Source: Robiginitomaculum sp. | Lineage (GTDB): Bacteria > Pseudomonadota > Alphaproteobacteria > Caulobacterales > Maricaulaceae | Direction: 5' to 3' | Length of the DNA: 64,000 nucleotides | NCBI GenBank assembly: GCA_021776525.1 | Contig: JAJFFT010000004.1 | Coordinates: forward strand, 62,001-126,000 | Shown: one piece after another, positions 6,381 to 63,956 of the stretch | Numbering within the stretch: position 1 is the first letter of the stretch | Layout of the letters: every line of letters starts with the position of its first letter | Program-made: the position numbers and the translations under genes | The notes under the pieces: model-generated | Told to the model about the DNA's origin: nothing | The model's database searches: none | The model's input: the letters and a program-made list of their open reading frames with translations, nothing else

Positions 6381-6416
6381 GCGCTATCGCAATGCTGGCG
6401 CTCACTATTTGAGCGC
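6381..6416. repeat. Palindromic repeat, 36-bp variant of the GCGCTA...TTTGAGCGC family
   Basis: The element starts GCGCTATCGC and ends TTTGAGCGC, and its ends pair as GCGCT/AGCGC. It is longer and more diverged in the middle than the 26-bp copies in the prophage (48247, 56501, 63891, 63929, and inverted at 60909, 62483 and 62519). It lies in the gap after the methyltransferase islet and shows that the family also occurs outside the prophage. Confidence 0.6.
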
Positions 6417-12185: not shown

Positions 12186-12363
12186 CTATTGAACCCTTAC
12201 CGGCAGGACTTGCCGCCTTTGTGGTGTTTTTTTCCGGTGTGATAGGGACATTATAGATGCAGGGCATAACAAGGGATGCGCTGTAACGTTCTGAATTATC
12301 AGTGATAAATTCATTTTCATCTGTAATGTCCAAAATCCATGCGGATTAACCATAAGTGTACAT

Positions 12364-48200: not shown

Positions 48201-48333
48201 CGCGGGATGGCGCAGTGGTAGCGCGTCTGGCTCATACAGCTTTAGTGCGCTATCGGCCTTTGGCCTATTTGAGCGCGAAGGTCGCTCGGCCCAAAACAAA
48301 AAGTGATCCGGCTCCCGCAACCAAACAGCCTTT
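48201..48333 (+). pseudogene. Interrupted initiator tRNA (fMet)-like sequence
   Basis: CGCGGGA (48201-48207) can pair with TCCCGC before A-ACCA near 48322-48332, with a C1-A72 mismatch, the mark of initiator tRNAs. The D-arm (GCGC...GCGC) and the start of the anticodon arm (TCTGG CTCATA, anticodon CAT) are intact. The 3' half of the anticodon arm is then replaced by a palindromic repeat (48247-48276), after which AAGGTCG resumes like the variable region. The T-arm is also disrupted: only CCGGC remains before the acceptor. It cannot fold as a normal tRNA and looks like a decayed copy. Confidence 0.65.
48247..48276. repeat. Palindromic repeat inside the tRNA-like sequence
   Basis: This 30-bp copy starts GCGCTATCGG and ends TTTGAGCGC, with ends pairing GCGCT/AGCGC and an inner GGCC-TTT-GGCC palindrome. 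It interrupts the anticodon arm of the tRNA-like sequence. Confidence 0.7.
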
Positions 48334-56500: not shown

Positions 56501-56526
56501 GCGCTACCGCTCACGCTTTTGAGCGC
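56501..56526. repeat. Palindromic repeat, 26-bp copy
   Basis: The copy reads GCGCTACCGCT...CTTTTGAGCGC, with outer stem GCGCT/AGCGC. It stands between the dyad and the lysozyme gene. Confidence 0.75.
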
Positions 56527-56553: not shown

Positions 56554-57294
56554 ATGGCAGAACACCGACAAATCAGCCCGGCAGGGGTATCCGAAATCAA
56601 GCAACGCGAGGGTTTAGTCCTTGTTGCCGAGCCGGACCAAGCCGGTGTCTGGACCATTGGTTACGGCCATACTGGTAAGGTCTTCCCCGGCGACACAATC
56701 ACCCAGACGCAAGCAGAGCAATTCCTTCGCGAAGATGTGCGCTGGGCCGAAACCACAATCAGCGCCAATGTCAAAGTGCCGCTTTCACAAAGTCAATTTG
56801 ATGCCTTGGTCAGCTGGTCGTTCAATGTCGGCATTCACAACACCATTGAAAGTACATTAGTGCGCCGCCTGAACGCCGGTGATTATGGCGCGGTGTCGTC
56901 AGAGTTGATGCGCTGGGTTAAAATAACAGACCCTAATACGGGCACGCTGGTGTTTAACCAGGGCTTGCAAAACCGGCGCATGTCAGAGGCTGAACAATTT
57001 ACCAAAGACGACAAGCAAGCCCCGATAGCACAGGCACGCGGCGCAGCCATTGCTGCCGCGCCTGCGGGCCGTGAAGACATGGCCGGGTCGCGCACACTAA
57101 AAGGTGCTGCATTGGCCGGTGGCGGCGGCGTTGCCACCGCCATTGTCGACGCCACATCGCAAGCCAAGTGGCAGTTAGAGGGCATGGTTTACTTTATCCC
57201 GGCGCTCAAATGGGTGCTCATTGGTGTGATTGTCATTGGCGCGGCGGCGGCCATTTACGCGCGTTTTGATGACCATAAGAAGTGTCTGAAGTGA
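56554..57294 (+). CDS. Phage lysozyme (GH24) with C-terminal membrane segment
   Basis: The 246-aa endolysin has the T4-lysozyme-like catalytic block. Catalytic Glu is in SEIKQREGLVLVAEPD, and VWTIGYGHTGKVFPGD carries the Thr. The wider LSQSQFDALVSWSFNVG stretch is also typical. A long Ala/Gly-rich linker leads to a C-terminal hydrophobic helix (FIPALKWVLIGVIVIGAAAAIYA, about 215-237) before a short basic tail. Lysozymes of this family usually carry a SAR helix at the N-terminus, so the C-terminal anchor is unusual. AAGGAGCC precedes the start. No separate holin is clear. Confidence 0.9.
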   Translation: MAEHRQISPAGVSEIKQREGLVLVAEPDQAGVWTIGYGHTGKVFPGDTITQTQAEQFLREDVRWAETTISANVKVPLSQSQFDALVSWSFNVGIHNTIESTLVRRLNAGDYGAVSSELMRWVKITDPNTGTLVFNQGLQNRRMSEAEQFTKDDKQAPIAQARGAAIAAAPAGREDMAGSRTLKGAALAGGGGVATAIVDATSQAKWQLEGMVYFIPALKWVLIGVIVIGAAAAIYARFDDHKKCLK

Positions 57295-59449: not shown

Positions 59450-60879
59450 TTGCGGCTAAACCAGAATTTGACCCGCTGGAGCTGCCAAAGGGCCGGATGT
59501 TCTTGGGTTATCAGACCAAGGCGCAGCGGCTGTTCAACACGACGTCATTATTGCTTATTCCGAAATCTCGCCAGGTTGGCATTACATGGGCATTCGCCTT
59601 TACCGCCATGAAAACCGCAGCGGCTTCAAAACAAGCGGGCGGCATGGACGTTTATTATATCTCGTATTCCAAAGAGATGACCCGTGGATTTATTGACGAT
59701 GTCGCCATGTGGGCGCGCGCCATCAATGATGTTGTTGTGCAGATTGATGAGGTCGTGTTTGATGATGATGGCAAGGATATTCAGGCGTTTCGGATACGCT
59801 TTGCCTCCGGCAAATCCGTCACCGCTTTGCCGTCTGTGCCGCGCTCGATCCGCAGTAAAAAGGGCCTACTCATTATTGATGAGGCTGCTTTTGTCAAAGA
59901 CCTGAAAGAGCTGATTAAAGCGGCCATGGCGTTTTTGGTTTGGGGCGGCAAAGTCGTCATAATATCTACCCATGACGGGGTAGATAATCCTTTTAACTTG
60001 CTAATCGAAGACATCAAGGCAGGCCGCCGAAAAGGCAAGGTGTTCAAAATCACTTTCCAAGATGCGCTGAACGACGACCTTTATGAGCGCATTATGCTTG
60101 TTACCCGAAAGAAAGCGTCACCCGCAGGAAAACTGGCGTGGGTGAAAGACATGTATGATTATTACGGGGAGGATGCTGACGAAGAGCTTGACGTCAAGCC
60201 AAGTGCCGGTTCCGGCTCCTGGATTAGCCCGGCCGACATTGCCGCCGCCTGTCATGATGAGGCGGGCGAGCCGCGCTTTTATGCGGGCGGCCTGTGCTAT
60301 GTTGGTCGCGATATTGCCCGCCGCAATGACCTTGCCACCATCTCGCCTTTTGAAGATGTCGATGGCGTGCTGTGGCAGCGCGAAGAGGTGGCCATGAAAA
60401 ATGCCCGCTTCTCTGAGCAGGCGGCCGAGTTTGATCGCATCATGCGCGATTATAATGTGGTGCGTGCAGCACTGGACCAGACCGGCATGGGCGAGGCGGT
60501 GGTCGAGGCGGCGCAGGATAAGCACGGCGAACATCTGGTTGAGGGCGTGTTGTTCACGCCGACAATGCGGCTGAACATTGCCACACTGCTTAAAAAGCGT
60601 TTTGAAGACGGCACCATTCGCATTCCCAATGATGACAAGGTTAAGGCAGACTTTCGCTCGATCAAGAAAATATCCGGTGGCAATGGCGCACCGCGCATTG
60701 CCGAAGACGGCTCGTCCGATGGCCATGCCGACCGGTTTTGGGCGGCGGCGTTGGCGGTGGGCGCGGCTGAAAACCCCTATCAGAAATATGAATATAAACC
60801 GGTGCCTTCAGGCGCAGGTCGCGGCGATGAAGGTAGCGGCGGCGGTCGCGGCGTTCGTGGCCATCAAGGAGCGTTATAA
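59446..60879 (+). CDS. Phage terminase large subunit (Mu gp28-like)
   Basis: The 477-aa packaging motor has the ATPase motif LLLIPKSRQVGITWAF (Walker A variant), Walker B KKGLLIIDEAAF and the coupling motif VVIISTHDG. A nuclease domain follows with YVGRDIARRNDLATI and ALDQTGMGEAVVEAA, where the Asp residues bind metal. It cuts and packages phage DNA at the capsid portal. Ends and starts overlap with neighbours. Confidence 0.94.
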   Translation: MIAAKPEFDPLELPKGRMFLGYQTKAQRLFNTTSLLLIPKSRQVGITWAFAFTAMKTAAASKQAGGMDVYYISYSKEMTRGFIDDVAMWARAINDVVVQIDEVVFDDDGKDIQAFRIRFASGKSVTALPSVPRSIRSKKGLLIIDEAAFVKDLKELIKAAMAFLVWGGKVVIISTHDGVDNPFNLLIEDIKAGRRKGKVFKITFQDALNDDLYERIMLVTRKKASPAGKLAWVKDMYDYYGEDADEELDVKPSAGSGSWISPADIAAACHDEAGEPRFYAGGLCYVGRDIARRNDLATISPFEDVDGVLWQREEVAMKNARFSEQAAEFDRIMRDYNVVRAALDQTGMGEAVVEAAQDKHGEHLVEGVLFTPTMRLNIATLLKKRFEDGTIRIPNDDKVKADFRSIKKISGGNGAPRIAEDGSSDGHADRFWAAALAVGAAENPYQKYEYKPVPSGAGRGDEGSGGGRGVRGHQGAL

Positions 60880-62552
60880 TGAAATTACCTTTTGGCATTG
60901 GCGCGCGTTCGCGCTCAAGCAGCGAAGCGGTCCCGCCGCCTGAAAAGCCTTCCCCTGAAGAGGCCAAGAAAGACTTGCAAAACGAGGTCGCCGCCCCGTC
61001 ATTGGCCAGCATTCGCCAGGCGTGGGGCGATTCCAGCGTTGTTGCGGGGCTGACCCCGGTCAAACTGGCGCGCATTCTCAAGGCGGCGGCACAGGGCGAT
61101 GCCCATGATTACCTTGTGCTGGCCGAAGAAATGGAGGAGCGCGATCCGCACTATGCGGCGGTGCTGGGCACGCGCAAGCGGGCCATATTGGGTATGGATG
61201 TGCAGGTCGAGGCCGCATCCGAAACGGCGCGAGACAAAGAGATTGCCGACGAGATATCAAAACTGGTTCGCAAACCAGCCTTTGAAGGATTGTGCGCCGA
61301 TTTGCTGGACGGCCTTGGCAAAGGTTATTCAGCCGTCGAGATTATGTGGGACCGTGGCAAACAATGGAAACCCGGCGCATATAAGCACCGCGACGCTAAA
61401 TGGTTCCGCTTTGACCTTGACGATGCGCGGACGCTTTTGCTGGCCACAGAACAAAACCCTTTGGGCGAGGCGCTGCCCGCCTATAAATTTGCGGTGCACA
61501 CCCCGCGCCTTAAAACCGGTATTCCCATTCGCGGTGGGCTGGCGCGCCTGGTTGCCTGGTCTTTCCTGTTCAAGAATTATTCGATCAAGGATTGGGTCGG
61601 CTTTATGGAAGCCTATGGCCTGCCCTTGCGGGTTGGCCGCTATGGCCCGAACGCCAGTAAAGAGGACAAGGACGCGCTGTTTAGAGCCGTGGCCAATATC
61701 GGCACCGATGCCGCCGCCATTTTGCCAGAAAGCATGCGCATCGAATTTCAAGAAGCAATGAAGGGCGCTTCCAGCTCTGATTTGTTTGAGCGCGCCGGAC
61801 GGTTTTTTGACCAGCAAATTTCAAAGGCGGTGCTCGGCCAGACCATGACCACCGAAGATGGTGCCTCGAACAGCCAGGCGCAGGTGCATGATGGCGTGCG
61901 TGTGGAGATAAGCGAGGACGACGCCAAGCAATTGGCGGCCACCATCAATCGCGATGTGATTGTCTCTTACGTTGACCTGAATTATGGCCCGCAAGAAGAT
62001 TACCCGCAGGTGTCCTTCCAGACGCTCAATGAGGAAGAGCTAAAGCCTCTGGTAGACGCCATTGGGACATTGGTTGATCGCGGCATGCGCGTTTCGCAGC
62101 GGCAAATGCGCGATAAGCTGGGTCTGGACGATCCGGACGATGATGATGAAATTCTCACCCCGGCCAACGCTGGAAACCCGCAATCAGCCCCGGCACCTGA
62201 TGATGCTGCCCCCGCGATAAATTCAGCTTTTGCCCTCAACCGCGATGGGCAAACAGAATTGCCACCGAGCGCTGAGCTTGACGAGCTGCAAGCCAGCGAC
62301 CTTGCCGACTGGCAACCCATGATTGACCCGCTTCTTGCGCCCATCCGTGATTTGGTCGCGCGTTCAAACACCCCTCAAGAGGTCTTTGAAGGGCTTTCAA
62401 AACTGCTTCCTGACATGGACAGCGGCGCCCTCGCCACCGCCCTTGCTGAAACCTTGTTCAAGACGCGCGGCCAGGGGCAGTCGCCCTCAAGCAGCGAAGC
62501 GGTAGGGCATGAAACAAAGCCCTCAAGTAGCGAAGCGGTAGGGCCGGGGTAA
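60879..62552 (+). CDS. Phage portal protein (DUF935, Mu gp29-like) with in-frame palindromic repeats
   Basis: The 557-aa portal forms the DNA entry ring. Typical DUF935 parts are SIRQAWGDSSVVAGLTPVKLARIL, LAEEMEERDPHYAAVLGTRK and MEAYGLPLRVGRYG. Three copies of the 26-bp palindromic repeat lie in frame: one near the N-terminus (60909-60934) and two at the very end (62483-62508, 62519-62544). Each encodes SSSEAV with a conserved nucleotide sequence. These tails lie outside the conserved domain, so insertion would be tolerated. Confidence 0.92.
   Translation: MKLPFGIGARSRSSSEAVPPPEKPSPEEAKKDLQNEVAAPSLASIRQAWGDSSVVAGLTPVKLARILKAAAQGDAHDYLVLAEEMEERDPHYAAVLGTRKRAILGMDVQVEAASETARDKEIADEISKLVRKPAFEGLCADLLDGLGKGYSAVEIMWDRGKQWKPGAYKHRDAKWFRFDLDDARTLLLATEQNPLGEALPAYKFAVHTPRLKTGIPIRGGLARLVAWSFLFKNYSIKDWVGFMEAYGLPLRVGRYGPNASKEDKDALFRAVANIGTDAAAILPESMRIEFQEAMKGASSSDLFERAGRFFDQQISKAVLGQTMTTEDGASNSQAQVHDGVRVEISEDDAKQLAATINRDVIVSYVDLNYGPQEDYPQVSFQTLNEEELKPLVDAIGTLVDRGMRVSQRQMRDKLGLDDPDDDDEILTPANAGNPQSAPAPDDAAPAINSAFALNRDGQTELPPSAELDELQASDLADWQPMIDPLLAPIRDLVARSNTPQEVFEGLSKLLPDMDSGALATALAETLFKTRGQGQSPSSSEAVGHETKPSSSEAVGPG
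60909..60934 (-). repeat. Palindromic repeat within the portal gene, N-terminal copy
   Basis: GCGCTCAAGCAGCGAAGCGG..., the inverse orientation of the intergenic copies. It encodes RSSSEAVP. Its right end is imperfect (CCCGC), so this stem is weaker than the C-terminal ones. Confidence 0.75.
62483..62544 (-). repeat. Two palindromic repeats at the end of the portal gene
   Basis: Two 26-bp copies (62483-62508 and 62519-62544) differ at one base (GCAGC/GTAGC) and start 36 bp (12 codons) apart. Their outer stems are GCCCT/AGGGC instead of GCGCT/AGCGC, a compensatory change. They encode PSSSEAVG twice and reach to within 8 bp of the stop. Confidence 0.85.
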
Positions 62553-63890: not shown

Positions 63891-63956
63891 GCGTACCGCT
63901 TACGCTTTTGAGCGCGGCTTTTCCTTTTGCGCTACCGCTTACGCTTTTGAGAGCCC
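63891..63956 (+). repeat. Two tandem palindromic repeats
   Basis: Copy 1 (63891-63915) starts GCGTACCGCT and ends TTTTGAGCGC, one base shorter in the left arm. Copy 2 (63929-63954) starts GCGCTACCGCT and ends TTTTGAGAGC. They are 38 bp apart, close to the 36-bp spacing of the portal-gene pair. Confidence 0.75.

Follow-up and report, generated by a model that had tools for sequence, protein, structure and literature searches.

Small palindromic repeats in a Mu-type phage portal gene and at tRNA 3' ends in Robiginitomaculum: a probable REP/RPE-type mobile family

Introduction

In published descriptions, RPE are palindromes of 105-146 or ~150 bp that lie in frame in conserved protein genes, and they are also reported from RNA genes, namely those for tmRNA and RNase P RNA (PMC2229807, PMC10969869). 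CGTC-tagged REPs are described as 20-40 bp palindromes, mainly alphaproteobacterial, both intergenic and intragenic and with no associated transposase; each has a CGTC-type tag, an 8-9 bp stem, a 4-5 nt loop and a CCA-like tail, head-to-head dimers occur, and the group includes RPE-4 and RPE-6 of R. conorii (PMC3733652). Since these REPs, RPE-4 and RPE-6 among them, are found inside genes, in-frame landing of REP-sized repeats was, on that account, already known. GTAG-tagged REPs are described as being mobilised by RAYT/TnpAREP (PMC8266576; PMC3733652).

The repeats analyzed here agree with the general description of a REP (a 20-40 nt palindrome in many copies per genome) and resemble RPE in lying, at the DNA level, in frame in conserved protein genes. 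The descriptions nevertheless set them apart from RPE: they measure 26-36 nt (with a unit of ~36-46) instead of 105-146 bp, occur in Robiginitomaculum and other alphaproteobacteria rather than in Rickettsia, and are frequent in phage genes. With GTAG-tagged REPs as described they share a bulged hairpin and a repeat that supplies the TAG stop codon of a gene (here a short copy at C4:139145), but no conserved, unpaired 5' GTAG tag was seen, the flanks showing by eye a T-rich leader and no constant tetranucleotide, and the source genome (94.7% complete) gave no Y1_Tnp match. By the text description of CGTC-tagged REPs they differ in having no constant tag (CGTC appears only where the arm is GTCC after a C), a longer inner part (in the short form, 5-bp arms enclose 16 nt) and arrays that run head to tail.

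No description of this repeat was found in the open-licence literature searched, where one of six exact repeat strings matched, in an unrelated context; five repeat sub-strings were absent from PMC12306157. An earlier note on this DNA had pointed to in-frame palindromes from Rickettsia, which holds and extends to other REPs, and knew of no such family in a Mu-like portal gene. The family itself appears to be new, as do its load in phages and its association with tRNA 3' ends.

Results

The portal gene and the window

The window is a stretch of 64,000 nucleotides, contig C4:62001-126000 of a 2.96-Mb Robiginitomaculum genome. Its features are listed below; G129 is a same-genus genome with a colinear prophage.

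6381..6416, plus strand: 36-nt long-form copy outside the prophage (E 1e-13, among the 12 model-building copies)
48247..48276, plus strand: size variant of 30 nt whose apex is a GGCC-TTT-GGCC hairpin
56501..56526, plus strand: short-form palindrome upstream of the ORF at 56554 (pattern match, G129 alignment)
60879..62552, plus strand: DUF935/Mu-type portal gene, 557 aa (ORF and PHROG match)
60911..60936, minus strand: short-form palindrome 1, N-terminal, in frame as RSSSEAV; absent from the G129 homologue
62483..62508, minus strand: short-form palindrome 2, C-terminal, in frame as PSSSEAVG; absent from the G129 homologue
62509..62518, minus strand: spacer of 10 nt separating palindromes 2 and 3 (minus-strand sequence tttgtttcat), T-rich as the leaders of other copies are
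62519..62544, minus strand: short-form palindrome 3, in frame as PSSSEAVG, 36 bp from copy 2; absent from the G129 homologue
63891..63915, plus strand: short-form copy 3' of the head-morphogenesis gene, one base lost, in tandem with the next
63929..63954, plus strand: short-form copy with one arm mismatch; a gap in the G129 alignment, in a diverged region

The three 26-nt palindromes that the earlier note had placed in the portal gene are indeed in frame within one plus-strand ORF of 557 aa, each encoding SSSEAV. AAGGAG stands shortly upstream of the portal ATG, and the start aligns with that of the G129 portal. PHROG phrog_113 (portal) matches residues 33-541 at E 2.3e-152; the conserved core spans ~residues 30-541 and takes in neither the first copy nor the greater part of the tail. 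A window scan returned 4 pattern matches against 0.01 expected (100 shuffles), with a pattern designed after the copies were known. The repeats are real, but not all are clean palindromes: at 60911 one outer arm has decayed and a single arm is kept (GCGCT facing CCCGC), 63891 is one base short, and 63929 has its arm mismatch. The five copies reported in the opposite orientation (6381, 48247, 56501, 63891 and 63929) are all present on the plus strand. The one at 6381 had been taken for a diverged copy; it is instead a size variant of 36 nt, as 48247 is one of 30 nt, and neither is a diverged 26-mer.

Two further observations were made. Just before the 30-nt element, 48209-48243 holds 35 nt like the 5' half of a tRNA (CAT anticodon region), which aligns weakly to two of the genome's own tRNA-Met genes. 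Just 3' of a head-closure gene (L031 18666-18693) lies a TGTC-ACCCCGG...CCGGGGT-CCA hairpin, a CGTC-type REP by appearance, so that two kinds of repeat are present in one prophage.

The three portal copies share one frame, and SSSEA is also the most frequent reading elsewhere, in 6/10 PHROG-matched ORFs; both facts are what would be expected if SSSEAV were a selected portal peptide, repeated for protein function. Yet among 84 homologous portals (the best 80 of 570 IMG/VR relatives, the G129 prophage and 3 other family genomes, with 307 phage records left out) none carried SSSEA[VI], so that homologues with the same peptide in other codons, which the earlier note had named as the observation that would count against it, did not appear. 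The peptide also occurs in unrelated proteins, 4/10 ORFs use other frames, and identical DNA is maintained outside genes; selection on the peptide is thus hardly credible. The motif count alone was used, as a fuzzy palindrome scan of the portals made without an arm check gave noise only.

Empty sites in a colinear prophage

The G129 prophage is 67-80% identical to that of the window in blocks of 150 bases or more. Its portal (76% identical) is without all three copies, so that the comparison with a tail-less portal proposed in the earlier note could be made: it has neither the N-terminal stretch nor the C-terminal tail. The G129 protein ends four residues past the common FKTRGQG, with the two C-terminal repeats absent; at the N-terminal copy the difference is not a clean insertion, with a net difference of ~5 codons. 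At the site matching 56501, G129 has a partial short copy followed immediately by an inverted long copy. Some intergenic alignments of the two prophages are too diverged to call.

Conversely, the G129 prophage has 9 copies accepted as real (2 of 11 rows were dropped as chance matches), of which 6 are in frame in four ORFs: ParB-like, 191-aa, 111-aa and 154-aa. The copies at 12331 and 19975 overlap ORFs (278 and 70-72 aa) that were judged non-coding by eye and were not counted. In the ParB-like gene the insertion is clean, in frame and 36 bp long, consisting of 10 nt plus the 26-nt hairpin; the protein reads GER-DFSSANASLLEH-VHLVP in G129 and GER-VHLVP in its counterpart. MITEs have terminal inverted repeats with a target-site duplication; at the empty sites seen here the flanks are ~75% identical, which is too low to resolve such a duplication.

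The family across the source genome

A consensus search of the genome, as the earlier note had suggested, did find family copies, but the first short-form pattern performed no better than its reversed control (9 matches against 9); by their inner sequence 7/9 are real, all within C4:118505-142692. With a looser pattern there were 18 matches, its reversed control having 3, and the 36-nt long form came to light genome-wide. Covariance models built from this genome (12 long copies, 8 short copies) returned, for the long form, at least 41 matches at E <= 1 and at least 36 at E <= 0.0024 among the 150 of 2341 candidates scored, and for the short form 20 matches at E <= 1, several of them weak and some shared; the model-building copies are among these matches. 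Counted from both models, 15 copies lie in C4:107000-143000, and 30/36 long-form matches lie outside it. Size variants comprise 22-, 26-, 28-, 30- and 36-nt forms, and a 36-nt copy with a short-form start (L230) bridges the long and short forms. One long copy is in frame in a 112-aa gene of the source genome, within the gene's PHROG match; at genus loci, ORF overlaps are mostly too short to judge.

Variants were also seen elsewhere: a pair with GCACT arms (L072 and L073, G000 C4:487628-487690), distant from the prophage and immediately before what looks like the start of a gene, and a 27-nt variant inside ORFs of 383 and 382 aa (L254 1502-1528 and L255 1043-1069).

Hairpin structure and co-variation

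The base motif of the hairpin is near-constant (CTAYCG ... CTAYTTGAG), the outer arms co-vary around it and the apical part varies in size; in the short form 5-bp arms enclose a 16-nt part. Coupled change of the outer stem, noticed earlier within the window, is real and extends beyond it. The outer 3 bp are complementary in 72/81 distinct IMG/VR contexts (shuffle mean 19.8, maximum 31) retrieved with a pattern that fixed the outermost G and C, in 26/31 class-sample contexts (30 loci, own included; shuffle mean 5.8, maximum 15) from a search that fixed neither arm, and in 27/33 genus-locus contexts (shuffle mean 8.8, maximum 16) found by a model that favours pairing. Among exact IMG/VR copies the outer dinucleotides are complementary in 91/99. 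For long-form pairs, 13 cells changed on both sides against 4.6 in shuffles, with no excess of pair types (7 against 7.7); for the short-form arms there were 4 double-changed cells against 1.6 and 2 pairs with such a change against 1.1, again with no excess of further pair types (2 against 1.9). Predicted folding is modestly better than that of shuffles (z -0.25 to -2.32).

Hairpin-templated copying or arm correction could make arms match without selection, so that co-variation alone is no proof of it. The claim that the palindrome rather than the peptide is maintained is nonetheless borne out, since other phage ORFs use other frames and the outer pairs co-vary around a near-constant core. As a further possibility, a phage or host protein might bind the core as duplex DNA, in the manner of an operator, packaging or transposition site, and the core would have spread through selection for binding. 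The 20-nt core has partial dyad symmetry and is near-constant in distant genomes, as such a site would be, although the searches fixed most of the core. A duplex-binding protein would have no need of co-varying flanking pairs, however, and both the variation in apical length and the differing positions in colinear prophages speak against it; this reading is very unlikely.

The 10 nt upstream of the element are T-rich (0.47-0.58, against 0.25-0.35 downstream). Head-to-tail arrays have a spacing of mostly 35-38 bp (also 39, 41 and 51) for the short form and mostly 44-49 bp (one 56) for the long form. Of the six frames through the 26-mer, four are open with G at the variable base and three with A.

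The long form and stable RNAs

Long-form copies occur on the strand of a tRNA gene, 7-18 nt beyond its 3' end. ARAGORN found a tRNA in the locus for 20/43 copies examined, upstream and on the same strand in 20/20. Outside the prophage, 22 of the 30 long copies follow a tRNA within 105 nt (measured to the array start); the other 8 comprise one after RNase P RNA, at a distance of 7 nt, two after tRNA-like 3' ends recognised by eye and five with neither. Seen from the tRNA side, 11 of the genome's 38 tRNA matches have a copy <= ~18 nt 3' of CCA and 2 more have one <= 105 nt away. In relatives, a tRNA lies 8-17 nt upstream on the same strand in 17/34 pattern-fetched loci (by record title 32 from Robiginitomaculum and 2 from one Alphaproteobacteria MAG), some of which represent the same tRNA in different species.

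This placement, together with the co-variation of the long-form pairs, is what would be expected if the hairpin worked as a signal in RNA, for 3'-end formation, processing or stability, that hosts keep 3' of tRNA and RNase P RNA genes; phages would have borrowed it, and the copies in genes would be side effects. Against it, 25/38 tRNAs are without the element, and two of these (L383, L385) show ordinary hairpin-plus-T terminators by eye; no T-run follows the element consistently; and the short form is found in both orientations, within ORFs and within 23S rRNA. A primary role as RNA signal is accordingly rather unlikely. A T-run after CCA was also considered as part of the inserted unit and rejected, many element-free tRNAs having one as well.

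At G000 C1:77605-88789 the 3' half of tRNA-Thr(cgt) is present a second time, ~11 kb from the intact gene, which suggests an integrated island; a long element adjoins the displaced half (one of the two tRNA-like ends recognised by eye), and in three relatives the element or its array follows the intact tRNA-Thr. Separately, three identical long copies 46 bp apart (L044-L046, G000 C7:28493-28622) stand in tandem after tRNA-Thr(ggt), which suggests recent tandem duplication.

Phage genes and spread among genomes

In IMG/VR, 79 viral-contig stretches hold 99 exact short-form copies; the long-form pattern gave none. Many of these copies overlap long ORFs, some of them spurious, and more than one frame is used. 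From a longer list, 20 ORFs with an in-frame copy were chosen for a PHROGs search, and 10 matched (the other 10 without match): DNA primase, TerL, methyltransferase, two tail-tip/J-like proteins, ParB-like, Mu-type transposase, portal, TerS and polymerase processivity factor. For TerL, ParB-like, transposase, portal and TerS the copy falls within the part that matched. In the remaining five it falls outside that part, in some of them near the N-terminus, so that translation might in fact begin farther in. The readings in these ten ORFs are SSSEA (6), TASLLE (2) and LKQRSG (2). Against two homologues each, the TerL ORF has ~16-25 extra residues at the element and the L339 portal has 17, differences with fuzzy edges and larger than one 12-codon unit; the Mu-type transposase ORF was compared with one homologue, which is not decisive.

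Among 137 family genomes, the long model matched 20 (17 of the 18 same-genus genomes, counting the source genome, plus 3 others, with 49 candidates scored in each) and the short model 16, 15 of them same-genus (55 candidates scored per genome). Short-form matches in copy-rich genomes number 50 in G123, at least 55 in G133 and 33 in G129. Across the class the short form is sporadic: the 20-nt core is present in 14/385 sampled alphaproteobacterial genomes and 10/277 genera, with 44 copies in one genome, and the reversed-pattern control gave none in the genomes listed from that sample. A plasmid blast gave 22 records, mostly Rhodobacterales and all at E 0.01 or worse, with one archaeal hit that is probably chance. 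With the portal repeat pair, blast against INPHARED phages gave one hit at E 6, judged chance, and against E. coli genomes none at E <= 1.

The 23S rRNA gene of genome G467 contains a short-form copy in its 5' part (L346 1498-1523 and L369 1498-1523), at a position that we take to be near the helix-9 region, known for intervening sequences; L360 resembles these loci by its tRNAs. By its location the G467 copy is like the 23S rRNA intervening sequences of alphaproteobacteria as these are described, whereas the portal copies remain, at the DNA level, in an open reading frame.

Discussion

Taken together, the repeats are best read, with a probability of about 0.78, as small palindromes of REP/RPE type that form a mobile but non-autonomous family, tolerated where they land in frame and encoding a peptide that is not selected. 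The unit would consist of a T-rich leader of ~10 nt and a hairpin with a near-constant base motif, co-varying arms and a variable apex. An enzyme that recognises the folded hairpin would spread copies in trans, and phages may ferry the element between hosts. With a short unit of ~36 bp (12 codons) and 3-4 of the 6 hairpin frames stop-free, landings near termini and in loops or linkers would often be tolerated; the SSSEAV peptide would be a by-product.

As a candidate mobiliser, a Y1 transposase was considered and rejected. It is found in 6/18 same-genus genomes, G129 included, and is absent from G123 and G133, so that of the three copy-richest same-genus genomes G129 alone has a match, and no clear link to copy number is apparent. 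One alternative, though an unlikely one, keeps the mobility and places the element in a class of its own, a mobile hairpin with a folded RNA or single-strand stage that would be drawn to stable-RNA 3' ends (tRNA, RNase P RNA) and phage genes, carried by phages from one alphaproteobacterium to another and moved by a novel enzyme.

In-frame palindromes are best known from Rickettsia chromosomes, and the REP/RPE-type family described here is a small, untagged one in phage genes, portal and terminase among them. It yields presence/absence pairs of related genes together with a precise tie to tRNA 3' ends in the host genus, and so makes testable how REPs that have neither a tag nor a known transposase move, and the frequency with which such insertions lengthen functional proteins.
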